17,209 nt of DNA from Desulfobacterales bacterium (lineage in GTDB: Bacteria; Desulfobacterota; Desulfobacteria; Desulfobacterales; UBA5852): contig JASJBQ010000108.1 in assembly GCA_030066455.1 (NCBI GenBank), positions 1 to 17,209 of the forward strand, read 5' to 3'. How positions within the stretch are numbered: position 1 is the stretch's first letter; each line of letters starts with the position of its first letter. Shown piece by piece: positions 1,627 to 17,209 of this stretch. The position numbers were made by a program, and so were the translations under genes. Below the pieces are notes generated by a model, which did not search any database, had not been told where the DNA came from, and was given only the letters and a program-made list of their open reading frames with translations.

Positions 1627-2090
1627 ACCACGCCCAACCCTTCCCCGACGGCGCGGCAAGCTAGACCCTGAATTCACCCCCGGCGCGCCCCGCCGCCAAC
1701 ATCGCCGTCAACACCTGTCACCGTAACAGCCATGGCCTGCAGCCGGGGGCATGCAGGTGACCGTTTCAACCCGCAAAGGCTTCGACCCGCGCCTTTATCC
1801 TGAATTTGCCCCGCAACGCGGGTGCCACCTGCCAGGAACCACCGACGCCTATGTCATGACCTGACCGGGCTTGGGCCTTACGGCCCGGCGCGCGCCCCTC
1901 GCCATGCTGCCGACAACGCCCGTTCGCTTCCGCGCCCACCCCTCAGGGGTCAGCATCGACGCGTACCGTACCGCCATCATTTTGTTGTTGACCACAGCTC
2001 AAAGAAAATATAACGATCATTTTTCGAATGGCATTCGACTGCAATTTCCCCCGATTCGCCCAACCCTGCCAGCAAAGGAAAAGCCTAACG
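1627..2090 (+). other. Intergenic stretch without a supported gene
   Basis: About 460 bases with no convincing coding frame on either strand. It holds an inverted repeat at 1865-1888 (CCGGGC paired with GCCCGG, enclosing an alternative GGGCC/GGCCC stem) with no T-tract. The start CCTGAATT occurs at two places (near 1667 and near 1799), too short to call a repeat. The last 100 bases become AT-rich and carry the candidate promoter for the next gene. Confidence 0.5.
1985..2014 (+). promoter_or_regulatory. Candidate promoter for the SDR/ThDP/BASS cluster
   Basis: TATAAC (2009-2014) is a good -10 element. Two -35 candidates exist: TTGTTG (1985-1990) at 18 bases, or TTGACC (1988-1993) at 15 bases. 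The patch is AT-rich and lies about 75 bases before the SDR start. No clear operator palindrome for the downstream TetR regulator was found beside it. Confidence 0.4.
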
Positions 2091-2927
2091 ATGTACAAGG
2101 ACCTCAAGGGAAAAACCGCCCTCATCACGGGGGCCGGTAAGAAAACCGGGATCGGCTTTGCCATTGCCGAAAACCTGGCCGCCAGCGGATGCCACATCAT
2201 CCTGGCCGACCTGGGCAGCGAAGGAAGCGACGGCGGGGTGGTGGCGGCGGGGTCGTCTGCCGAGATGGCGAAGAACGCATCCGACCTGGCCACGCGCTTC
2301 GGCACCCGCTGTTCGAGCGTCAGTGTCGACGTGACGGCCAACGCATCGATCGAGAAAATGGTGGCCGCCGTTTCGGCCGCAGCCCAACGCATCGACATTT
2401 TGTGCAACAACGCCGGGGCGGTGTTCGGTGTGCCCAACGCCGTGCATACCTACCCGGAGGAAGACTGGATGAAGACGATCGACGTCAACCTTCACGGGGT
2501 CTTCCGCGTCACCCGCGCTCTGCTTCCGCTGATGCTGGGGCAGCCGGCGGCCATCGTCAATACCGCCTCCCGGGGCGGCAAAGTGCCCCCGCTTTTCAAC
2601 GGCGCCTATGCGGTGGCCAAAGCCGGTGTCATCATGCTCACCAAGGTCATGGCCAAGGAATTGGCCGGTGCCGGCATCCGGGTCAACGCCATCTGTCCGG
2701 GCCAGATTCACACCGATCTGGAAGACTGGCGCGCGCCCCTGGAGGCCGAGTTCACGGGGCAGACGGTTGAAGCGCGCAATGCCGCCGTGCGACGCACCAT
2801 CCCCATGAACCGGGTCGGCACCCCGGATGAGGTCGGCCGCCTGGTGGCCTTTCTGGCTTCGGAGGCCTCGGCCTACATCACCGGCCAGGCCATCAACATC
2901 ACCGGCGGCCAGTTGATGGAGCTGTAG
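2091..2927 (+). CDS. Short-chain dehydrogenase/reductase (SDR), 278 aa
   Basis: A classical SDR that oxidises an alcohol or reduces a carbonyl with NAD(P). The Rossmann motif TGAGKKTGIG is at residues 13-22. Asp40 at the end of the second strand favours NAD(H). NNAG is at 106-109, the catalytic serine is probably Ser160, and Tyr173-x3-Lys177 (YAVAK) completes the site. The PG motif (CPGQIHTDL) and the C-terminal ITGQAINITGG are also typical, and the length is normal apart from an insertion after Asp40. The start at 2091 is chosen because the dinucleotide fold begins directly after it and AAAGGA lies upstream; an in-frame ATG at 2028 would add 21 unrelated residues. First gene of the cluster, 83 bases before the ThDP enzyme. 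The substrate is not predictable. Confidence 0.9.
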   Translation: MYKDLKGKTALITGAGKKTGIGFAIAENLAASGCHIILADLGSEGSDGGVVAAGSSAEMAKNASDLATRFGTRCSSVSVDVTANASIEKMVAAVSAAAQRIDILCNNAGAVFGVPNAVHTYPEEDWMKTIDVNLHGVFRVTRALLPLMLGQPAAIVNTASRGGKVPPLFNGAYAVAKAGVIMLTKVMAKELAGAGIRVNAICPGQIHTDLEDWRAPLEAEFTGQTVEARNAAVRRTIPMNRVGTPDEVGRLVAFLASEASAYITGQAINITGGQLMEL

Positions 2928-2934
2928 CGCTTCC

Positions 2935-2968
2935 GGCCGCCGTCCCGTTGTGGACGACTGCGGCGGCC
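2935..2968 (+). other. Intercistronic stem-loop between SDR and ThDP enzyme genes
   Basis: GGCCGCCG (2935-2942) is perfectly complementary to CGGCGGCC (2961-2968), and an inner GTCC/GGAC can pair as well. There is no T-tract, so it is unlikely to be a strong intrinsic terminator. It could stabilise or help process the transcript between the two genes, or cause partial attenuation. Confidence 0.35.
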
Positions 2969-3010
2969 CATGCAACAAACCCCACACGATCTGCAGTCTG
3001 AGGAGGTGTC

Positions 3011-4738
3011 ATGGCGGAGGTCACGGGAGGAGAGCTGCTGCTGAAATGCCTGCACGCCGAAGGGGTGCAGCACATCCATGCCATTACGGACGGCACCTAT
3101 ATGATGGTCGTCGAAGCCCTGGAGCGGCTGGGCGAACAGCTCGACATGCGCCTGATCGTGCCCCGGCACGAGGCGGCTGCGGCCCATGCCTGCGATGCCT
3201 ACACCCGGGTCAGCGGAAAGCCGGCGGTGGCCATGGCCTGCGCCGGCCCCGGGGCCGCCAATCTGCTGGCCGGCATGATGTGCGCCGAGGCCGAGGGCAG
3301 TCCGGTGGTGGCGATCACCACGACCCGGCGCAGCGATATCGCGGATGCCTATCTACAGCAGGGGGGCATGCAGGTCAGCCGCCACCTGGAAATCTTCAAG
3401 CCGGCGGTCAAATGGAACGGCAAGGTGGAACACTGGCAGCGCATCCCCGACATGGTGCGCCACGCTTTCCGCGTGGCCGTGAGCGGCCGCCCCGGGCCGA
3501 CCCACATCCTGATCCCCGAGGATATCATCTCCCGACGGGGGGATGAGGACAGTGTGACGATCCTGCCCCCGGATCAGTATCGCCTGACCACGCGGGTGCC
3601 CGCCGATCCCGAGGCGGTCAGAAAAGCGGCGCAAATGCTGGCGGGGGCCGACCTGGTCAACATGCACTGCGGCAACGGGGCGGAGCGCTCCGACGCAGCC
3701 GAGCAAGTCCGCCGTCTGGCCGAGCACCTGGGCTGCCCGGTCACCCACACGATACGGGCGCGCGGCATCATCCCCGACGATCACCCCCTGTGCTTCCATC
3801 CCACCTGCATGTCCCGCATCGCGGCCAACGGCCAGTCCGACGTCGTCATGGCGGTGGGCACGCGTCTGGGGGAGCTGAACATGTGGGGCCGGCCCCCCAT
3901 GTTCGGGGAACCCGGCAAGCAGCGCCTGATCCAGATCGACACCGAGCCCACCCACATCGGTCTCAACCGCCCGACGGACATCGCCCTGATCGGGGATGCC
4001 CGCACCGTTCTGGAGCAACTTCTGGACGCCGTCCGGCAGTTGACGCCAAAGCGGGAGCCGCATGCGAAGGTGGCCGAATTCAGGGCCCTTCAGGACGCGT
4101 TCGAACAGGAATTGAACACGGCGCTCGAAGACACGACGCGCCGGCCCATGCTGACGGGCCAGATCCTCAAGGCCTGCAACGACTTCTTCAAGGATGACGC
4201 CATCTTCGTGATGGACGGCGGCAACACGACCCTCTGGGACATCCATTACCATGTCGCCCGGCGCTCACGCGCGGTGATCTACTCCATGAACTACGGGCAC
4301 CTGGGCACGGGCCTGCCGTACAGCCTGGGGGCCAAGCTGGCCCGCCCGGACAGGCCGGTCTACTGCGTCACCGGTGACAGCGCTTTCGGCTTCAACCTCC
4401 AGGAACTCGAGACCGCCGTGAGAAACGATCTGCCGGTCATCATCCTCGTGGCCGTGGACGGGGCCTACGGCATGGAGAAGAGCGCCCAGCAGCGCCAGTT
4501 CGGACGCGAGGCCCCCTGGTTCGGTCATGATCACGCGCCTGTGCGCTACGACCAGGTGGCCATCGCCATGGGTTGCCACGGCGAATACGTCGACAGCGTG
4601 GCCGAACTCCGGCCGGCCCTGGAGCGCTCCGTGGCCTCGGGCCGACCGGCAGTGATCCACGTGGTGGTCGATCCCGAAGCCAACGTGGATCCGCCGGGCA
4701 ACTGGCTGTGGGCGGCCGCGCGGTCCGGGAAGATGTAA
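3011..4738 (+). CDS. Thiamine diphosphate-dependent enzyme, acetolactate synthase-like (575 aa)
   Basis: The three-domain architecture of the ALS/pyruvate oxidase/decarboxylase superfamily is complete. The N-terminal pyrimidine-binding domain carries the cofactor-activating Glu54 in RHEAAAAHA and the conserved CAGPGAANLLAGM (about 77-89). A central domain follows (about 190-340), then a C-terminal pyrophosphate domain. The ThDP/Mg motif is GDS (455-457), 24 residues, then Val482-Asp483, a variant of GDG...NN. Such enzymes cleave or form C-C bonds beside a carbonyl, for example 2-oxo acid decarboxylation or carboligation. The sequence alone does not separate acetolactate synthase, a decarboxylase, a lyase or an acetyltransferase. 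No small regulatory subunit gene is adjacent, which argues against a biosynthetic acetolactate synthase. AGGAGG at 3001-3006 precedes the ATG. Located between an SDR and a transporter. Confidence 0.88.
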   Translation: MAEVTGGELLLKCLHAEGVQHIHAITDGTYMMVVEALERLGEQLDMRLIVPRHEAAAAHACDAYTRVSGKPAVAMACAGPGAANLLAGMMCAEAEGSPVVAITTTRRSDIADAYLQQGGMQVSRHLEIFKPAVKWNGKVEHWQRIPDMVRHAFRVAVSGRPGPTHILIPEDIISRRGDEDSVTILPPDQYRLTTRVPADPEAVRKAAQMLAGADLVNMHCGNGAERSDAAEQVRRLAEHLGCPVTHTIRARGIIPDDHPLCFHPTCMSRIAANGQSDVVMAVGTRLGELNMWGRPPMFGEPGKQRLIQIDTEPTHIGLNRPTDIALIGDARTVLEQLLDAVRQLTPKREPHAKVAEFRALQDAFEQELNTALEDTTRRPMLTGQILKACNDFFKDDAIFVMDGGNTTLWDIHYHVARRSRAVIYSMNYGHLGTGLPYSLGAKLARPDRPVYCVTGDSAFGFNLQELETAVRNDLPVIILVAVDGAYGMEKSAQQRQFGREAPWFGHDHAPVRYDQVAIAMGCHGEYVDSVAELRPALERSVASGRPAVIHVVVDPEANVDPPGNWLWAAARSGKM

Positions 4739-4840
4739 CCCGGCCGGGCGAATTCGGCTCTGATGACCGGCCGGCACCCATAAAGCGTGCGGGCGCCGGC
4801 CCCGACCCGATTATCCCTACGTGCGAATGGAGTTGCGTCC

Positions 4841-5782
4841 ATGGACATGGCCGCCGTCGATCAGGTCCGTTTGAATTTCAATCCCCAGGGGTTGTTCATT
4901 ATCAACATGGCCATCGGGCTGATGATGTTCGGGGTGGCCCTGGATTTGAAGCTTGCGGATTTCAAGCGGGTGATCGTTGACCCCAAGGCGCCCGGCATTG
5001 GTCTGGCCGCGCAGTTTATCCTCCTGCCGGCCTTCACCTACCTGCTGATCCTGATGATCCGGCCCCACCCCAGCATGGCCTTGGGCATGATCCTGGTGGC
5101 CGCCTGCCCGGGTGGCAACCTCTCCAACATCATCACCTATCTGGCCCGGGGCAACTGCGCCGTTTCGATCAGCATGACGGCGGTGTCCTCGGCCCTGGCC
5201 ATCCTGCTGACGCCCTTCAACCTCGCGTTGTGGGGGCGGCTCAACCCGGCCACCGCCGCCATCCTGCGTGAAGTCCGACTGAGCCCGTTCGACGTCTTCG
5301 TGACCATCTTTGTGATCCTGGGCATTCCCCTGGCCGCCGGCCTGATCGCCAGCCGAGCCTTCCCCGGCCTGGCCGATCGTGTGCGCCAACCGTTTAAGAT
5401 TTTCTCCCTCGCTTTCTTCATTCTCATCGTCTGCGGAGCGCTGGCCGCCAACTGGCAGCATTTCCTGCAGTATGTCGGTCTGGTCATCCTGGCCGTGTTC
5501 CTGCACAACCTGCTGGCGCTCAATATCGGCTATTGGACGGCCCGGGCGCTGCGCCTGGACGAACGCGACTGCCGGGCCGTGTCGATCGAGGTCGGCATTC
5601 AGAACTCGGCCCTGGGTCTCGTGCTGGTATTCAATTTTTTCAACGGGCTGGGCGGCATGGCCATCCTGGTGGCCTGGTGGGGTATCTGGCACATCATCTC
5701 AGGCCTGAGCGCCGCCTTTGTGTTCAGCCGGAAACGGCTGCCCGGCGACAATGACAACACCAATGCCTGCCGGGCGTCCTGA
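4841..5782 (+). CDS. BASS-family (bile acid:sodium symporter-like) transporter, 313 aa
   Basis: A hydrophobic integral membrane protein with about 9-10 predicted segments. Both hallmark sodium-site motifs of the fold are present: CPGGNLSN (89-96), and EVGIQN (250-255) in the second repeat. Family members import organic anions with sodium, such as bile acids, pantoate or ketopantoate and other oxo or hydroxy acids. The name does not imply bile acids here. The start at 4841 is chosen for GGAG (4829-4832) 8 bases upstream; a GTG at 4787 would add 18 residues. Its stop is one base before an in-frame ATG of the next gene, so the two are translationally linked. The context suggests it imports the substrate of the surrounding dehydrogenases and ThDP enzyme. 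Confidence 0.88.
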   Translation: MDMAAVDQVRLNFNPQGLFIINMAIGLMMFGVALDLKLADFKRVIVDPKAPGIGLAAQFILLPAFTYLLILMIRPHPSMALGMILVAACPGGNLSNIITYLARGNCAVSISMTAVSSALAILLTPFNLALWGRLNPATAAILREVRLSPFDVFVTIFVILGIPLAAGLIASRAFPGLADRVRQPFKIFSLAFFILIVCGALAANWQHFLQYVGLVILAVFLHNLLALNIGYWTARALRLDERDCRAVSIEVGIQNSALGLVLVFNFFNGLGGMAILVAWWGIWHIISGLSAAFVFSRKRLPGDNDNTNACRAS

Positions 5783-5798
5783 TATGAAGGCCCCGCAT

Positions 5799-6845
5799 AT
5801 GGATCGTTCGATTCCCCCGCACATGCCGGCCGTGGTCTATCGCCAAGGGCGCGGCCTGGTACTGGAGGAAATACCGGTGCCCGCCACCGGCCCTGACGGC
5901 GTCCTGATCGAGGTGGCGCACACGGGTTTCTGCGGATCGGATCATGCCTTGATCAAAACCGGCGGTTTGGCCGACGGCACCATCCTGGGCCATGAGGTCA
6001 GCGGCCGGGTGGCGGCCTGCGGCGAGGCGGTTTCCGGCGTGGCGGTCGGGCAGCGCGTTATGGTCCGGCCCAGCGCCTGCGGTGCCTGCCGCGACTGCCG
6101 GGAAGGACGCCCCTATTTCTGCCAGAACGACCGGCACAGCATCGGTATCGGGGACATGCCCGGTGGCTTCGCGGCCTACGTGCGGGTGCTGCCCGCCATG
6201 CTGATTCCCGTCCCCGATGGGGTCGACGCCCTTAACGCCGCCCTGGCCGAGGTCCATGCCGCTGCGCTGCACGCCATCAACTGTGTCGGGCGCCGCCGGG
6301 GCGCGTCCCTGGTCGTGGGCGGCGGTCCCATCGGTCTGGCCCTGGTGAAACTCCTTGGCCTGATGACATTCGACCCGATCGTGCTCTCCGAACCGGTGGC
6401 CGCCAAGCGTGAATTGGGAGCGGCTCTCGGTGCCCACGCCACCATCGATCCCTTTGGGGACGACACGGGCCGGCAGGTGTTCGAACGCACCGCCGGGCAT
6501 GGGTTCGACATCGTGTTTGAATGCTCGGGCATTGCCGCCAACATCGCCCAGGCACTGGAGTGGGTCGCCCGCGGGGGCGATGTCTGCATTGTCAGCCTGA
6601 TTTTCGACCCGGCCACGATCGCGCCCCTGACGCTCACCTTCAAGGAGGCTCGGCTGACAGGCTGCTACTCCAACACCCACGAGGAAAACCGGCGCATCCT
6701 GGATTGGATGGCGGAAGGCCGTTTGGACGGACGGCCGCTGATCTCGCATCGGACGACGCTCGCCCAGCTGCCCCAGGTCTTTCGCGAACAGATCGAACCG
6801 GGCCGCGCGATCAAGGTTGTGGCGGATATCGGCAAATCCTTCTGA
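5799..6845 (+). CDS. Zinc-dependent alcohol dehydrogenase (MDR family), 348 aa
   Basis: A medium-chain dehydrogenase that interconverts an alcohol and its aldehyde or ketone with NAD(P). The catalytic zinc ligands fit Cys45 (GFCGSD), His65 and Glu66 (GHE). The structural zinc site is complete: Cys94, Cys97, Cys100 and Cys108. The Rossmann motif is VVGGGPIGLALVKLLG, and the length is normal. The start is uncertain. ATG 5799 has GAAGG 8 bases upstream and is used here; ATG 5784 lies right after the transporter stop, and ATG 5823 starts the conserved core (MPAVVYRQG). Closest in style to sorbitol/threonine/2,3-butanediol dehydrogenases, but the substrate is not assignable. Fourth gene of the cluster. 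Confidence 0.87.
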   Translation: MDRSIPPHMPAVVYRQGRGLVLEEIPVPATGPDGVLIEVAHTGFCGSDHALIKTGGLADGTILGHEVSGRVAACGEAVSGVAVGQRVMVRPSACGACRDCREGRPYFCQNDRHSIGIGDMPGGFAAYVRVLPAMLIPVPDGVDALNAALAEVHAAALHAINCVGRRRGASLVVGGGPIGLALVKLLGLMTFDPIVLSEPVAAKRELGAALGAHATIDPFGDDTGRQVFERTAGHGFDIVFECSGIAANIAQALEWVARGGDVCIVSLIFDPATIAPLTLTFKEARLTGCYSNTHEENRRILDWMAEGRLDGRPLISHRTTLAQLPQVFREQIEPGRAIKVVADIGKSF

Positions 6846-6902
6846 CCGCGTCCGCGTTTGGGGCCGTGGGTGGATGATCCGCTTCGAAAAGGAAATGGAA
6901 CC

Positions 6903-7570
6903 ATGGGGTAAAACAGCGTCGTCACCGTGAACGGGCCGAGCGACGGCAGCAGATTCTGGATGCGGCCCGTCAACTTCTGTTTGAAAAGGGCCTGGCCGCA
7001 ACGTCGGTCAACCAAATCGCCCGCATCGCCGAGCTGAGCATCGGCACGGTCTATTTCTATTTTGAAAACAAGGAGGACATTTTCGCCGCCCTGCAGGCCG
7101 AAGGGCTGGCGATCCTTCACCGCGACGTCCTGGCTGCCTGCCGGCCGGCGGCCGACCCGGAAACGACGCTTGCGCGGGTGGCCGACGCCTATTACCGTTT
7201 CAGCGAAATCCACAAAAACTATTTCGACGTGATTCACTATTTCCTGTCGACCACCGATGTGGTCTTTTCACCGGCCGTCAAGCAACAGATCGACCGGCAT
7301 GGCCAGCGCATTTTAAAGCGGGTCGAAGCACTGATTGCCGCGGGGGTCGCCGCCGGCCGGTTTCGCCCGGTTCCAGCCCGACGCTATGCCCTACTGTTCT
7401 GGGGGTTGATTCATGGGCTAATTCCCTTTCGCAAGATGCGCGCGACCCTGCTGGCGGCCGACAGCCACCGGGCGCTCTACGACGAAGCCGTGGGTAATTT
7501 CATGGCGGGCCTGAAATACACCACCGCCGTTGCGAATCATCGGCCATCGGACAATCGGGAGGAGCGTTAA
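6903..7570 (+). CDS. TetR/AcrR-family transcriptional regulator, apparent frameshift at the start
   Basis: The reading frame from 6908 to 7570 encodes a full TetR-type repressor. It has an N-terminal DNA-binding domain with helix-turn-helix (SVNQIARIAELSIGTVYFYF, then ENKEDIF), followed by a helical ligand-binding domain of normal length. That frame contains no ATG, GTG or TTG before the HTH; the first is a GTG at 7178, which would delete the whole DNA-binding domain. The only well-placed start, ATG 6903 with AAGGAA 9 bases upstream, reads ATG-GGG-TAA. One extra G in the run 6905-6908 would give an uninterrupted 222-residue protein beginning M-G-V-K-Q. Possible causes are a base-calling or assembly indel, a recent inactivating deletion, or slippage. 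It would sense a ligand and control the cluster. The nitroreductase start follows its stop by one base. Confidence 0.75.
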
Positions 7571-7571
7571 A

Positions 7572-8501
7572 ATGGATTTGATGGATCGCACCGTGTCGGT
7601 CGACATCGACCGGGACAAGTGCATCGGATGCGGGGCCTGCATCGCGGTCTGCCCCTCGGAGACACTGACCCTGAAAGACGGAAAGGCCGTCGTCAGCGGC
7701 AGCCAGTCGCTTGCATGCGGCCACTGCGAGGCGGTCTGCCCCGAGGCCGCCGTGCGGGTGCGCGCGCTGCAAAACGACAGTCTGGCGTTTGAGAGCTTTG
7801 ATCGGCGCTCAGAATGGCTGGCCCCCGGGACCGCGGATGCCGCCGGTCTGGTGCAACTGATGCACTCGCGCCGGTCCTGCCGCCATTACCGCGACCGTCC
7901 CGTGCCCCTGAGTGTTCTGCAGGATCTCGGGCGCATCGGACTGACCGCGCCCTCCGGATCGAACTGTCAGCCCTGGTCGTTCACCCTTCTGCCTTCGCGC
8001 CAGGCCGTGGCACGTCTGGGCGATCTGATCGCCGCCTTTTTCCGCCGCCTGAACCGCACGGCGGACAACCGTCTGCTGCGCCAGGCCCTCAAACTGATCG
8101 GCCGCCGCGAGCTGGATTTCTACTACCGGAATTACCGTGATGCCGCGGTGGCCGCTTTGCAAGCGTGGGAGCGCTCCGGCCGCGACGTTCTCTTCCATGG
8201 TGCGCCGGCGGCGATACTGGTGGGTGTGCGACCGGGGGCGGCCTGCCCGGGAGAAGACGCGCTACTGGCCACCCAGAATATCCTGCTGGGCGCGCACGCG
8301 CTGGGCCTGGGTACCTGCCTGATCGGGTTTGCCGTCTCGGCGATGAAGAACGATCCCGAAATCCGCAGGCAACTGGGCATCCCGCCGGGCGAGTCCGTGC
8401 GGGCCGTCATTGCCCTGGGCTATCCCGGAAGCGAGGAAGTCTACAGCCGCCTGCCGGGCCGCAAGACCCTGGTCAGCCGCGTGTGGGAACCGCCCCCATG
8501 A
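7572..8501 (+). CDS. Ferredoxin-nitroreductase fusion protein (309 aa)
   Basis: The N-terminal ~60 residues form a bacterial-type ferredoxin domain. The first cluster motif is complete (Cys17, Cys20, Cys23, Cys27). The second reads SLACGHCEAVCP, with Ser46 where the first cysteine is expected and Cys49, Cys52 and Cys56 present. The rest (about 95-309) is a nitroreductase-fold FMN domain: HSRRSCRHYRDRPV and APSGSNCQPW are the flavin-binding region, and LLGAHALGLGTCLIGF is the second conserved part. Proteins of this form pass electrons from the clusters to FMN to reduce an unknown acceptor in anaerobes. GGGAGGAG (7557-7564) lies 7 bases before the ATG and inside the end of the TetR gene, so the two are co-transcribed. 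The physiological substrate is unknown. Confidence 0.88.
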   Translation: MDLMDRTVSVDIDRDKCIGCGACIAVCPSETLTLKDGKAVVSGSQSLACGHCEAVCPEAAVRVRALQNDSLAFESFDRRSEWLAPGTADAAGLVQLMHSRRSCRHYRDRPVPLSVLQDLGRIGLTAPSGSNCQPWSFTLLPSRQAVARLGDLIAAFFRRLNRTADNRLLRQALKLIGRRELDFYYRNYRDAAVAALQAWERSGRDVLFHGAPAAILVGVRPGAACPGEDALLATQNILLGAHALGLGTCLIGFAVSAMKNDPEIRRQLGIPPGESVRAVIALGYPGSEEVYSRLPGRKTLVSRVWEPPP

Positions 8502-12541: not shown

Positions 12542-12946
12542 ATGACAGCCTTGCTACGCGACATCGCTATGCCCTGGCTTCTTTTGATCGGCCTCTGCGG
12601 GCTGATCTTCTGGCAGTCTTCCGGGCCACTGCCACCTGAAACGCCCTCCCTGCCGGGACTCGACAAAATCGCCCACGCCGCCATCTACGCCCTGCTGGCC
12701 TGGCTGGCCGCCCGGGCCTTTGCCACCCTGCCGCGGATAGCGGATGCCGGTTGGCTCCCGTGGGCCGCCGCCATGTTCGCCGCCCTTTACGGGTTGAGCG
12801 ACGAGGTGCACCAGTCCTTCGTGCCCGGTCGCAGCGCCGACCTCTGGGACCTGGTGGCCGATACGGCCGGGGCGGTCGGCGGCGCTCTTTTCTACCGCCT
12901 GCGCGCCCCGGTCCGGAACCGCGGATCAGGCGCTTTCCTCCGTTGA
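12542..12946 (+). CDS. VanZ-like membrane protein, 134 aa
   Basis: A small integral membrane protein with three to four predicted membrane segments (about 10-27, 43-62, 74-88 and 108-124). The VanZ-family core is clear: LDKIAHAAIYALLAW, then YGLSDEVHQSFVPGRSADLWD, then ADTAGAVGG. VanZ proteins are named after a teicoplanin-resistance gene, but most chromosomal homologues, including this one, have no proven role. No convincing ribosome site is seen before ATG 12542; ATG 12569 is an alternative that would shorten the first helix. It lies 78 bases after thrS. Its stop codon overlaps the -35 element of the formate dehydrogenase promoter. Confidence 0.85.
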   Translation: MTALLRDIAMPWLLLIGLCGLIFWQSSGPLPPETPSLPGLDKIAHAAIYALLAWLAARAFATLPRIADAGWLPWAAAMFAALYGLSDEVHQSFVPGRSADLWDLVADTAGAVGGALFYRLRAPVRNRGSGAFLR

Positions 12947-12969
12947 CAATTGCAGGCGGATTCTATAAA
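12943..12969 (+). promoter_or_regulatory. Candidate promoter for formate dehydrogenase
   Basis: A perfect TTGACA (12943-12948) is followed by TATAAA (12964-12969) at a short 15-base spacing; TAAAAA at 12966-12971 would give 17. The AT-rich run at 12960-12980 stands out from GC-rich surroundings. The -35 overlaps the VanZ stop codon, leaving a leader of roughly 70 bases. No sigma54-type -24/-12 element was noticed. Confidence 0.5.
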
Positions 12970-13045
12970 AATTTAAACTCTGCACACCTGCCCGCCCGGT
13001 TCTTCACCGGGCTCGCCAACCTGCCCAAAGGAGAGCGGAAACGCC

Positions 13046-15814
13046 ATGACAGACCAAAATATCCTGGTGATGAACGGCAATGAATTCACCTTCGAACCCG
13101 GTGAAACCGTCCTGGATGTGGCCCGGCGCAACAGCATCGATATCCCCACCCTCTGCCATCTGAAAGGCGCCATCCCCACGGGGGCCTGCCGGATCTGCGT
13201 CGTGGAGGTGGAGGGTGCCCGCACCCTGCTGGCGGCCTGCGCCACACCGGCCGGCAAGAACATGGTCATCCGCACCGAGTCGCCGCAAGTGGTCGAAGCC
13301 CGGCGAACGATCCTGAAACTCATGCTGGCTTCGGGCAACCACAACTGCGCGGCCCGCGGCTCCGACGAGCAGGACTGGACCACCTTCCAGCTGGCGGTCG
13401 AAGCGGGCGACCGCAGCGACAAGCTCTGCCCCACCTGGGGCGACTGCCGGCTCCAGGACCTGGCCTACCGCTATCAGGTCGACGGCGAAGGGCACCCGGG
13501 AACGGCCTCGCCCTACCCGCTCGAGGACGTCAACCCCATGATCGTGCGCGACTTTTCGCGCTGCATCCTCTGCGGGCGCTGTGTTCAGGCCTGCAACGAG
13601 ATCCAGGTCAACAAGGCCATCAGCTTCGGGTTCCGGGGGGCCGAAACCAAGATCATCGCCGCCGGCGACAAGCCTCTCAAGGATTCGGACTGCGTCTTCT
13701 GCGGCGAGTGCGTCCAGGTCTGCCCGGTGGCGGCCCTGGTGGAAAAAAACCCGCGCTACGACGTTCGTCCCTGGGAAACCGAGCATGTGCGCACCACCTG
13801 CACCTACTGCGGTGTGGGCTGCCAGATCCATCTGCACGTCCGCGACAACCGGGTCGTCAAGGTGACGGGCGTCGAGGACGTGACCCCCAACCACGGCAGC
13901 CTGTGCGTCAAGGGCCGTTTCGGCTTTGATTTCATCCACGCGCCCGACCGCCTGACCAAACCCCTGGTGCGTAAAAACGGCAACCTCGAGGAAACCTCCT
14001 GGGACGAGGCCCTCGGTTTCGTGGCGGACAAACTGGGGCAGATCAAGAACGACCACGGCCCCGACAGCATCGGACTGCTGACCTCGGCCCGCGTCTCCAA
14101 CGAGGAGAATTACCTGGCCCAGAAGCTCTTCCGGGCGGTGATCAAGACCAACAACGTGGACCACTGCGCCCGTCTCTGACACAGCTCCACCGTGGCCGGT
14201 CTGGCCGCAGCATTCGGCAGTGGCGCGATGACCAACACCATCGCCTGTGTTGAAAAAGCCGACGTGATCCTGATCACGGGCTCCAATACCACCGAGAATC
14301 ACCCCGTCATCTCCGCCGGTGTCAAACGGGCCGTGGAATCCGGCCGCACCAAGCTGATCGTGGTGGACCCGCGCTATATCAAGATCGCCGGTTTCGCCGA
14401 CATTTACCTGCGCCAGAACCTGGGCAGCGACGTGGCCTGGCTCAACGGGATGATGCACGTCATCATCAAGGAAGATCTCCACGACAAGGATTTTGTCGCC
14501 GAGCGCACCGAGGGCTTCGAGGAACTCAAGGCGTCCGTCGCGAAATATACACCGGCCTACGTTGAGGAAATCAGCGGCATCCCGGCCGACCGACTGGTCG
14601 CGGCCGCCCGCATGTACGCCAACGCCAAGGTGGCCAGCATCCTCTACTGCATGGGCATTACCCAACACACCAGCGGTACGGACAACGTCAAGTCGCTGGC
14701 CAACCTGGCCATGCTCTGCGGCAACCTGGGCATGCCGGGTGGCGGGGTAAACCCCCTGCGCGGCCAGAACAACGTCCAGGGCGCCTGCGACATGGGAGGG
14801 CTCCCCAACGTCTACACCGCCTACCAGGCGGTCAACAGCGAAGAGGTGGCCCGCAAGATGGAAGACGCCTGGGGCGTCGAGGGCGTCTCGCTCGAGCTGG
14901 GCATGAAAGCCACCGACATGATCCCGGCGGCCCACGACGGCCGCCTCAAGGCGCTCTATGTCCTCGGTGAAAACCCGCTGGTCTCGGATGCCGATCTCAA
15001 CCACGCCGAGAAGAGCCTGGCCAACCTGGAACTCATGGTCGTCCAGGACCTGTTTATGACCGAAACCGCCCAGATGGCGGACGTGGTGCTGCCCGGACGC
15101 TGTTTCGCCGAAAAGGACGGCACCTTTTCCAACACCGAAAGGCGCGTCCAGCGCGTGCGCAAGGCGGTCGAGGCCCCGGGCGAAACCTGGGACGACTGGA
15201 AGATCATCGGCGAGATCGCCACCCGCATGGGCTATCCCATGGCCTATGAAAACGCCGAGGCCATCTTCGAGGAAATCCGGCAGGTCACCCCCTCCTACGC
15301 CGGCATCTCATATGACCGCATCGAGGTGGAAGGTCTGCACTGGCCCTGCCTGAACGAGGAGCACCCGGGCACGCCCGTCCTGCACAGCGCCCAGTTCACC
15401 CGAGGCAAGGGCGTGTTCCACGCCATCGACTGGCAGTCGCCGGCCGAGACGGCCGACGCCGAATACCCCCTTTATCTCACCACCGGGCGGGTACTCTACC
15501 ATTACCATACCGGCACCATGACCATGCGCTCGGAAGGCCTCATGGACCGGGCCCCGGAGAGTTTTGTGGAGATCTCGCCCAAGGATGCCGCCACCTATGG
15601 CATCGAGGACGGCGGGCGGGTCAATATCGCTTCGCGACGGGGCACCATCAACGCCCTGGTCAAGGTTTCCAACCAAGCGGTGGACGGCACGGTCTTCATC
15701 CCCTTTCACTACGCCCAGGCCGCCGCCAACAAACTGACCAACGCCGCCCTGGACCCGGTTTCCGGCATACCCGAATTCAAGGTCTGCGCGGTAAAGCTCA
15801 GCGCCGAGGGCTGA
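13046..15814 (+). CDS. fdhA: Formate dehydrogenase catalytic subunit, selenocysteine-containing, NuoG-like N-terminus (922 aa)
   Basis: Interconverts formate and CO2 at a Mo/W bis-pterin centre. Coding continues in frame through UGA 14177-14179, read as selenocysteine 378 in ARL-Sec-HSSTVAGLAAAFGSGAMTN, the known Sec site of formate dehydrogenases. Domains in order: [2Fe-2S] domain with Cys37, 48, 51 and 65; a modified NuoG His/Cys region (His99, Cys101, Cys128, Cys134); two [4Fe-4S] motifs (Cys173/176/179/183 and Cys216/219/222/226); then the catalytic part with CTYCGVGC (Cys252, 255, 259) and Cys287 holding a further [4Fe-4S]; and a C-terminal pterin domain. No signal peptide, so it is cytoplasmic. 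AAAGGAGAG lies 10 bases before the ATG. No NuoE/NuoF-like partner adjoins, so the electron acceptor (NAD(P), ferredoxin or a hydrogenase) is open. Standard gene callers would split it at 14179/14192. Confidence 0.95.
14177..14208 (+). promoter_or_regulatory. Bacterial SECIS element following the in-frame UGA
   Basis: Directly after UGA, GTGGCC (14192-14197) pairs with GGCCGC (14203-14208), including one G-U pair, around a GGUCU loop (14198-14202). The loop sequence and its position 18 bases after the UGA are the same as I recall for the Escherichia coli fdhF SECIS, where the loop binds SelB. This supports recoding rather than termination. Confidence 0.88.
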
Positions 15815-15840
15815 TCGCCTCACCAGGGATTGAAAACACG

Positions 15841-15880
15841 AAACCCCGAGAGATACCCGCCTCTCGGGGTTTGTATTTTA
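15841..15880 (+). terminator. Bidirectional intrinsic terminator between fdhA and metV
   Basis: AAACCCCGAGAG (15841-15852) is perfectly complementary to CTCTCGGGGTTT (15861-15872), a 12-base stem with an 8-base loop, followed by GTATTTTA. Flanking A-rich bases upstream (TGAAAACACG) also give a T-rich tail on the minus strand. It sits between two convergent genes, 26 bases after the fdhA stop, and probably ends both transcripts. Confidence 0.88.
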
Positions 15881-15925
15881 GGGGCGTGCGTCTGAAATCC
15901 GGCCATCCCGGGGGAAGGACCGTTC

Positions 15926-16603
15926 CTATTTCTTATTCTCGTAGCGTGCGGCGTATTCGTCCTGCACGATCATCCGCCGGGTCTGGTTCTGCCACTGCAT
16001 CACCGGTTTGACCTTCAAGATGTCGGCCACGCGGTTCTGTTCTTTGAGGCGTTCGTAGATATCCTGCCAGGCGCAGGGGATCTCGTTGCTGACCTCGCAG
16101 TTGCCCTTGTTGGTGCCGCCGCAGGGGCCGTTGAAAAGACCCTTGGCGCAGCGAGTGATCGGGCAGATCCCGGCGGTATAGCCCAGCACGCATTCGCCAC
16201 AGGCCCGGCAGCGCTCTTCGTAGATGCCGATCTGCCGGTCGACGCCGATGGCGATCGTGTTCACGGCCGGGAAAATGGGCTTGTCCGGATAGCGCTCGGC
16301 CATCAGCTGCACCCCGGCGCCGCAGGCCATGGACATGAGGCCGTCGTAGCGCGGCACCACCTTGTCCAGATCGGCCAGGAACACCTCGTTGCACTGGCGC
16401 TCCACCGTGAAGCTGTCGACCCGGGTGGCTTTGTTCTCACCGCTGAATGCGGCGTTGAGCTGGAGGTTTAAAAGGTTAACTTCTTTCTGCCCCCCGGCCA
16501 GGCAGACCGAAACACATCCGCCGCACCCGATGTTCAACACCCGCGTGTAGCCTTCAATCGCCTGCTTGATTTCCTCGAACGGTTTTTTCTTGGCTTTGAT
16601 CAC
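15926..16603 (-). CDS. metV: Methylenetetrahydrofolate reductase C-terminal domain protein (MetV-like), 225 aa
   Basis: A cysteine-rich protein of the MetV/PF12225 type, the partner subunit of MetF-type methylenetetrahydrofolate reductase in acetogens and sulfate reducers. It is thought to bind zinc or Fe-S and link the reductase to an electron carrier. Cysteines fall in an N-terminal CGGCVSVC (Cys27, 30, 34), in Cys71 and Cys94, and in a dense C-terminal group, CRACGECVLGYTAGICPITRC to Cys177, including FNGPCGG. The start codon is GTG at 16603 with a strong GGGAGGT 7 bases upstream. It follows the cytochrome gene by 38 bases on the same strand. A MetF gene is not in the window; it could lie elsewhere. 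Confidence 0.85.
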   Translation of the reverse strand: MIKAKKKPFEEIKQAIEGYTRVLNIGCGGCVSVCLAGGQKEVNLLNLQLNAAFSGENKATRVDSFTVERQCNEVFLADLDKVVPRYDGLMSMACGAGVQLMAERYPDKPIFPAVNTIAIGVDRQIGIYEERCRACGECVLGYTAGICPITRCAKGLFNGPCGGTNKGNCEVSNEIPCAWQDIYERLKEQNRVADILKVKPVMQWQNQTRRMIVQDEYAARYENKK

Positions 16604-16641: not shown

Positions 16642-17055
16642 TTATGCTTCCGGCGGCAAATGGCAGGTACCGCACATTTCCGGCCCCGAGGCCTCTCCGG
16701 CCTTGCGCACCTCGATGTGGCACCCCATGCACTGGCGGTGGTAGGCCCGCTGGCGGTCGATGGAGGCCTGGTCGTCGTGGCAGGCCCCACAGCTCACCTC
16801 CGGGGATTCCTCGACCAGATCGTCCTCGTCCAGGACGTTCTCGCCGTTTTCGTACTTGTGATGACAGTCCAGGCATTCGTAGAGTCCCATGTGAAGCTCA
16901 TGGGAAAAGGCCACCGGTGTCCGCTGGCGAGCGGCCTCCGGGTTGGCGTTCAAATTGATGATCTCTTCCTGGGCGAAGGCGATGGAGAGCCCCAGCCCGA
17001 CCACTACCAGGAAGCCGGCCAGCAGAATGAGCGTCCTTTTGGATTTTCGATGCAT
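16642..17055 (-). CDS. Periplasmic tetraheme cytochrome c (cytochrome c3 family), 137 aa
   Basis: Four CxxCH haem sites are present: Cys61-His65, Cys89-His93, Cys109-His113 and Cys128-His132. Extra histidines (His52, His55, His66, His106) can serve as sixth ligands, the bis-His pattern of class III cytochromes. A signal peptide is clear: MHRKSKRT, then a hydrophobic stretch at residues 8-26, and a likely cut after AFA before QEE. The mature protein of about 109 residues matches cytochrome c3 size. It carries electrons in the periplasm. The ATG at 17055 is chosen because the signal peptide starts there; an upstream frame to 17151 would overlap the preceding gene. The ribosome site (AAAGG) is about 13 bases upstream, rather far. 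Confidence 0.88.
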   Translation of the reverse strand: MHRKSKRTLILLAGFLVVVGLGLSIAFAQEEIINLNANPEAARQRTPVAFSHELHMGLYECLDCHHKYENGENVLDEDDLVEESPEVSCGACHDDQASIDRQRAYHRQCMGCHIEVRKAGEASGPEMCGTCHLPPEA

Positions 17056-17110
17056 TGACGTCGCGCTACCTTTCTTGGAAACCACGGTTGCCGGGTTGAA
17101 TCCCAAAGCC

Positions 17111-17209
17111 TCAGGCCGGCGGCTCGATCTGATCCCACTCGAAATATACATCCTGGGACCGGCAGATATTGCGGGCCAGGGCGATCATCTCGGGGATGTC
17201 GATCCCCAG
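17111..17209 (-). CDS. C-terminal end of an unidentified gene (partial, 32 residues)
   Basis: An open frame enters from the right edge on the minus strand and ends at TGA (17113-17111). The tail reads LGIDIPEMIALARNI, then CRSQDVYFEWDQIEPPA. Codon use fits a real gene and its stop precedes the cytochrome start by 55 bases, so it is probably the upstream gene of the same operon. Too short to assign a family. Confidence 0.55.
   Translation of the reverse strand: MGIDIPEMIALARNICRSQDVYFEWDQIEPPA

Follow-up and report, generated by a model that had tools for sequence, protein, structure and literature searches.

Does the in-frame UGA within a formate dehydrogenase gene of a Desulfobacterales bacterium end the protein chain, or is it decoded as selenocysteine (Sec)? 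The gene lies on a contig of 17,209 nucleotides (JASJBQ010000108.1), analyzed over its whole length and hereafter denoted the window, for which an earlier note had proposed a Sec codon followed by a canonical SECIS element. Here we find that UGA 14177-14179 is almost certainly a Sec codon of fdhA directed by the SECIS hairpin at 14192-14208. This reading is supported by the conservation of TGA among relatives, covariation and synonymous constraint in the hairpin, the broken hairpins of Cys-containing homologs, and the presence of the Sec machinery in related genomes.

The fdhA gene and its active-site codon

With the UGA read through, positions 13046-15814 of the forward strand encode a protein of 922 residues, with Sec at residue 378, that matches the formate dehydrogenase alpha subunit family TIGR01591 with 884.9 bits, against a cut-off of 666.25. 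The frame opens at ATG 13046 and closes with the UGA stop codon at 15812-15814, and UGA 14177-14179 is its sole in-frame interruption; the 377 codons before and 544 codons after this UGA that had been reported previously are exact when counted from ATG 13046. The motif GGAGAG at 13030-13035 of the same strand, 10 nt upstream of the ATG, is a putative ribosome-binding site, read directly from the sequence. According to the Pfam matches, NuoG-like N-terminal Fe-S domains come first and are followed by the molybdopterin domains (PF13510, PF22117, PF04879, PF00384, PF01568). The product is read as the alpha subunit of a formate dehydrogenase with molybdenum or tungsten, probably located in the cytoplasm, and the organism as a sulfate reducer of the desulfobacterial kind.

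The UGA occupies the active-site position of the enzyme. Its flanks, VDHCARL-U-HSSTVAGL, align with those of solved formate dehydrogenases, which bears out the active-site motif that had been recognized around the codon. Ten solved homologs were matched at E 1e-150; in five of these alignments, the active-site residue is Cys in 7qv7, 7vw6, 7e5z and 9wxb, and a non-standard residue (X) in 9t1s_L, the best match.

Conservation of the UGA codon

Relatives of the window gene were represented by the best 80 of 541 fdhA loci found in genome contigs. Among these 80, codon 378 is TGA in 74, TGC in four and TGT in two, which places the window gene among the Sec-containing FdhA. An in-frame UGA taken alone would look the same if it were a true stop that arose by a nonsense mutation or a sequencing error and left a pseudogene or two separate genes, and gene finders do split such frames. 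Against a true stop stand the recurrence of TGA at the same codon in most of the relatives, the lack of any further in-frame stop within the aligned region in all 80 relatives, and dN/dS values that, across the five relatives compared, are similarly low on either side of the UGA (range 0.062 to 0.268; for L001, 0.072 before the UGA and 0.076 after it). We consider this explanation highly improbable.

Genetic codes in which UGA is reassigned genome-wide, for example to Trp or Gly, exist, and under such a code a SECIS would be needless. Reassignment is at odds with the termination of the neighboring genes for threonyl-tRNA synthetase (12461) and an exonuclease/HRDC protein (9320) at UGA, with the identity of the homologous residue, which is Cys and neither Trp nor Gly, and with the conserved hairpin that follows the codon; its probability appears negligible. 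Conservation, the dN/dS values and the Cys residue of homologs thus led us to reject pseudogenization, a true stop and genome-wide reassignment of UGA alike.

Another conceivable arrangement involves two products, that is, the full-length Sec enzyme when selenium is available and, under starvation, either a working NuoG-like Fe-S fragment of 377 residues or a piece of 528 residues started at ATG 14228. The N-terminal half indeed has its own set of Fe-S domains, and this internal ATG lies after the hairpin, but dN/dS is similar in both halves and none of the present results points to a separate product; we regard a dual output as very unlikely.

The hairpin downstream of the UGA

The hairpin GTGGCC-GGTCT-GGCCGC on the forward strand (14192-14208) consists of a 6-bp stem (14192-14197 paired with 14203-14208) and the loop GGUCU (14198-14202). 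The stem with its loop is present as the earlier note described it; the distance of 18 bases from the UGA given there fits the loop, which starts after 18 nt (14180-14197), but not the stem, which starts after 12 nt. The bacterial SECIS model, in the available part of its description, calls for an apical loop of 3-9 nt on an upper stem of 4-16 bp, a G within the first two loop positions, a distance of 16-37 nt between the UGA and the apical loop, and a minimum free energy at or below -7.5 kcal/mol (PMC13188914). The window hairpin, with its 5-nt loop and 6-bp stem, the loop sequence GGUCU, the spacing of 18 nt and energies of -11.2 to -12.2 kcal/mol, falls within each of these ranges. It also resembles the Rfam family SECIS_3 (RF01989) over its full length (model positions 1-59 over 14174-14232, 52.5 bits, E 9.4e-12), yet stays below the gathering threshold of 63 bits. 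At the gathering level, no Rfam family was detected anywhere in the window, and the gathering score was reached by none of the 15 relatives' loci tried (nine Sec and six Cys, out of the 80). Hence, the designation of the element as canonical holds with respect to the constraints given in the available part of the published bacterial model (PMC13188914) but not with respect to the Rfam threshold.

Judged on one sequence alone, the hairpin is not beyond chance. Its folding energy is unremarkable, with z-scores of +0.43, -0.05 and -1.26, and a loosely SECIS-like hairpin follows 15 of the 26 UGAs in the window that are flanked by at least 60 open codons on each side, the fdhA UGA included.

Comparison across the relatives gives a different result. 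All six pairs are kept in each of the 74 Sec copies, among which the third pair occurs as G-C, A-U, G-U and U-A types, and the fifth and sixth pairs have undergone one two-sided change apiece; one two-sided change, that in L031, replaces two amino acids. In 72 of these copies the loop reads GGUCU, and in two it reads GGGCU. Three pairs covary, with pairing in 100% of the cells, and none of 500 shuffles, which ignore the relatedness of the sequences, equaled the covariation score; this calculation included 60 distinct rows out of 75, the window among them. When the partners were slid by 1-3 columns as a control, pairing was found in 16.9-68.3% of the cells. In a scan of synonymous variation over 596 scored codons of the 74 Sec copies, codons 383-388, which spell the hairpin, had the lowest value among 345 six-codon windows. 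The Cys copies present the opposite picture: the third pair is broken in all six, and GGUCU is absent from five, of which three have GGGCU, the loop also seen in two Sec copies, and two have GGCCU; the remaining one, L054, keeps GGUCU but has three broken pairs. Because TGA is so widely shared among the relatives, all six pairs are preserved wherever it occurs, three of these pairs covary and the synonymous minimum falls on the same codons, the hairpin is beyond chance. Its maintenance by covariation is a further argument against a true stop.

Selenocysteine machinery in related genomes

Genes for Sec decoding were searched in 12 genomes behind the relatives' loci (six Sec and six Cys) and in 14 named control genomes. 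Matches over the cut-off were found for selC in 10, selB in nine, selA in 11 and selD in 10 of the 12 genomes, and all four genes were over the cut-off in six, including the Desulfosarcina widdelii genome (G005), which is recorded as complete. The respective counts among the 14 controls were five (three at a stricter E-value), two, one and two. Four further genomes (G013-G016) encode a full-length SelB with 59-65% identity to the SelB of G003.

The one point in this search that favors a true stop is that no SelB over the cut-off was detected in G001 and G006, the two closest relatives (94%); G006 also gave no selC match at E 1e-9. These assemblies comprise 4.0 Mb (G001) and 3.8 Mb (G006); for the two relatives that come next, the sizes are 5.7 and 5.9 Mb. 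A contig end accounts for the missing SelB of G006: the match to the flanking gene located after selB in G002 starts at residue 175 of that gene, and the contig, 7866 bases long, stops 95 bases past this match in the direction in which G002 has selB. For G001, the flanking gene that follows selB in G002 gave no match and the best match of the second flanking gene was 31% identical; selB may therefore be absent from this genome, although its assembly is probably incomplete.

Several additional features of the Sec genes were observed in these genomes. In four of them, contig ends fall within the tRNA-Sec gene or at most about 30 bases away from it (L081 and L086 in G001, L083 in G003, L098 in G009, and L099 in G010); integration of foreign DNA at selC may be the reason. 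The two matches in G001 are two contig ends with the same tRNA sequence, and a second tRNA-Sec gene was accordingly rejected for this genome. Among 13 SelD matches over the cut-off in relatives (L118-L125 and others), 11 contain a single in-frame TGA, which makes SelD a probable selenoprotein in its own right in those relatives. A second, divergent SelB directly adjoins its own tRNA-Sec gene in G012 and G013 (L133 6721-8755 and L134 4021-6048), both of which also encode an ordinary SelB. The divergent protein scores 281.9 in G012, against the selB cut-off of 242.25, and 241.5, just under it, in G013; in G012, SelD is encoded about 4 kb from the divergent SelB. These pairs may come from contaminated bins. 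The available part of a previous survey names eight bacteria with two tRNA-Sec genes, of which seven belong to the Clostridia (PMC5330540).

Sec and Cys forms of FdhA

The distribution of Sec and Cys was mapped on a quick tree of 81 rows in which the Sec column was blanked and branch support was given by SH-aLRT only. The Cys label requires at least four changes on this tree, three of which are forced by starred branches, and L053, a Sec copy, is placed within a group that includes four Cys rows. The sequence of L045, which encodes Cys, is a mosaic. Its DNA is 0.93-0.99 identical to that of L053 over the first 372 codons (0.99 at codons 241-372), as opposed to 0.77 over codons 373-840, whereas its identity to another Cys copy, L061, is 0.73 before the break and 0.91 after it. 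The break falls at codons 373-378, beside the Sec/Cys codon. This mosaic is either a product of recombination or an assembly chimera in a metagenome and, because of it, the position of L053 in the tree alone is no proof of a Cys-to-Sec change. The break suggests, with a probability that we take to be rather low, that the Sec form (UGA with SECIS) and the Cys form are exchangeable by intragenic recombination, beyond point mutation alone. In the available part of a 2006 study of FdhA, seven Sec-to-Cys conversions and no Cys-to-Sec conversion are reported (PMC1794560). SelB is over the cut-off in five of the six Cys genomes, and in four of these five, selC is likewise over the cut-off and selA is present at least in part; under the recombination reading, Cys would be a choice made inside Sec-decoding cells.

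Predicted decoding and comparison with known systems

Established knowledge of FdhA and SelB suggests how the locus would function. SelB carrying Sec-tRNA(Sec) would bind the GGUCU hairpin while the ribosome is at UGA 14177-14179, and Sec would be inserted at residue 378 instead of the chain being ended. The selenium of Sec378 would then ligate the metal, Mo or W, and participate in catalysis, either oxidizing formate or reducing CO2. Perhaps the enzyme serves the formate step of the Wood-Ljungdahl pathway, given that a gene of the methylenetetrahydrofolate reductase type is its neighbor.

In E. coli fdhF, we take GGUCU to be equally far from the UGA as it is here and Sec to be the same active-site residue in formate dehydrogenase H; the E. 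coli SECIS presumably has a bulged U where the window hairpin has a U-G pair. Compared to fdhF, the window hairpin closes its 5-nt loop with six pairs, the U-G pair included. The structure of E. coli formate dehydrogenase H (PDB 1aa6) matches the window FdhA only from residue 248 and, given this start of the alignment, lacks the NuoG-like N-terminal part.

Counterparts are also known from sulfate reducers. Desulfococcus multivorans, another species, belongs to the Desulfosarcina-Desulfococcus group; according to the available part of its published description, its cytoplasmic FdhA is likewise an alpha subunit with a Sec-UGA followed by a SECIS, and is entered under two locus tags, dmul_C16320/30 (PMC5109826). 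In the available part of its own description, Desulfobacterium autotrophicum HRM2 encodes four cytoplasmic FdhA selenoproteins, differing from the present case in having several FdhA paralogs, and its genome carries selA, selB, selC and selD (PMC2702500). The available part of PMC13188914 describes FdhA as the selenoprotein family with the widest distribution in bacteria. Because the arrangement of a UGA and a hairpin is already well known in sulfate-reducing bacteria, the finding is an ordinary one and adds nothing new to the mechanism.

The practical consequence concerns annotation, which can miss the Sec codon in fdhA. The earlier note had anticipated that automatic annotation would turn the gene into two truncated ones or a pseudogene, and a search with the second half of the protein agrees with this expectation: the best 120 of 7994 scored database proteins are all C-terminal pieces of 528-586 aa, starting after the active-site residue or near it, although the candidates ran to about 950 aa.

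Genomic neighborhood

Upstream of fdhA, the window contains a vanZ-like gene and the threonyl-tRNA synthetase gene. Downstream, a terminator-like hairpin that matches the consensus only (15841-15872, both strands) lies between fdhA and the convergent genes; positions 12900-16000 contain five sites with the terminator pattern, where shuffled sequence gave 2.8 (sd 2.0). The first convergent gene (15926-16603, reverse strand), outside the Sec element, encodes a methylene-tetrahydrofolate reductase C-terminal protein (PF12225) that is presumably MetV-like. In L001, a homolog of the PF12225 gene also adjoins fdhA, and a PF02219 MTHFR gene is near as well, which would agree with a function in the Wood-Ljungdahl pathway. 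In the window, fdhA looks monocistronic.

The neighborhood comparison among relatives takes the longest ORFs, and at several loci, the window included, an antisense ORF appears in place of fdhA; therefore, only clusters 2, 3, 5, 7, 14 and 15 were used. Within the flanks that were fetched, 15 of the relatives' loci have NuoE-like genes and 11 have NuoF-like genes (Pfam names from L058 and L049); members of these clusters were not found in the window. Their proximity to fdhA in part of the relatives suggests NAD(H) as a possible electron partner of FdhA.

Two other groups of genes in the window were observed. The forward-strand run at 2028-8501 encodes a short-chain dehydrogenase (2028-2927), a thiamine-pyrophosphate enzyme, a bile-acid-symporter-type transporter, an alcohol dehydrogenase and a ferredoxin-nitroreductase fusion, and may be a catabolic cluster. 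On the reverse strand, 16642-17151 encodes a class III multiheme cytochrome c, whose highest-scoring NCBIfam model, TmcA, gives 81.7 bits and thus stays below its cut-off of 114.
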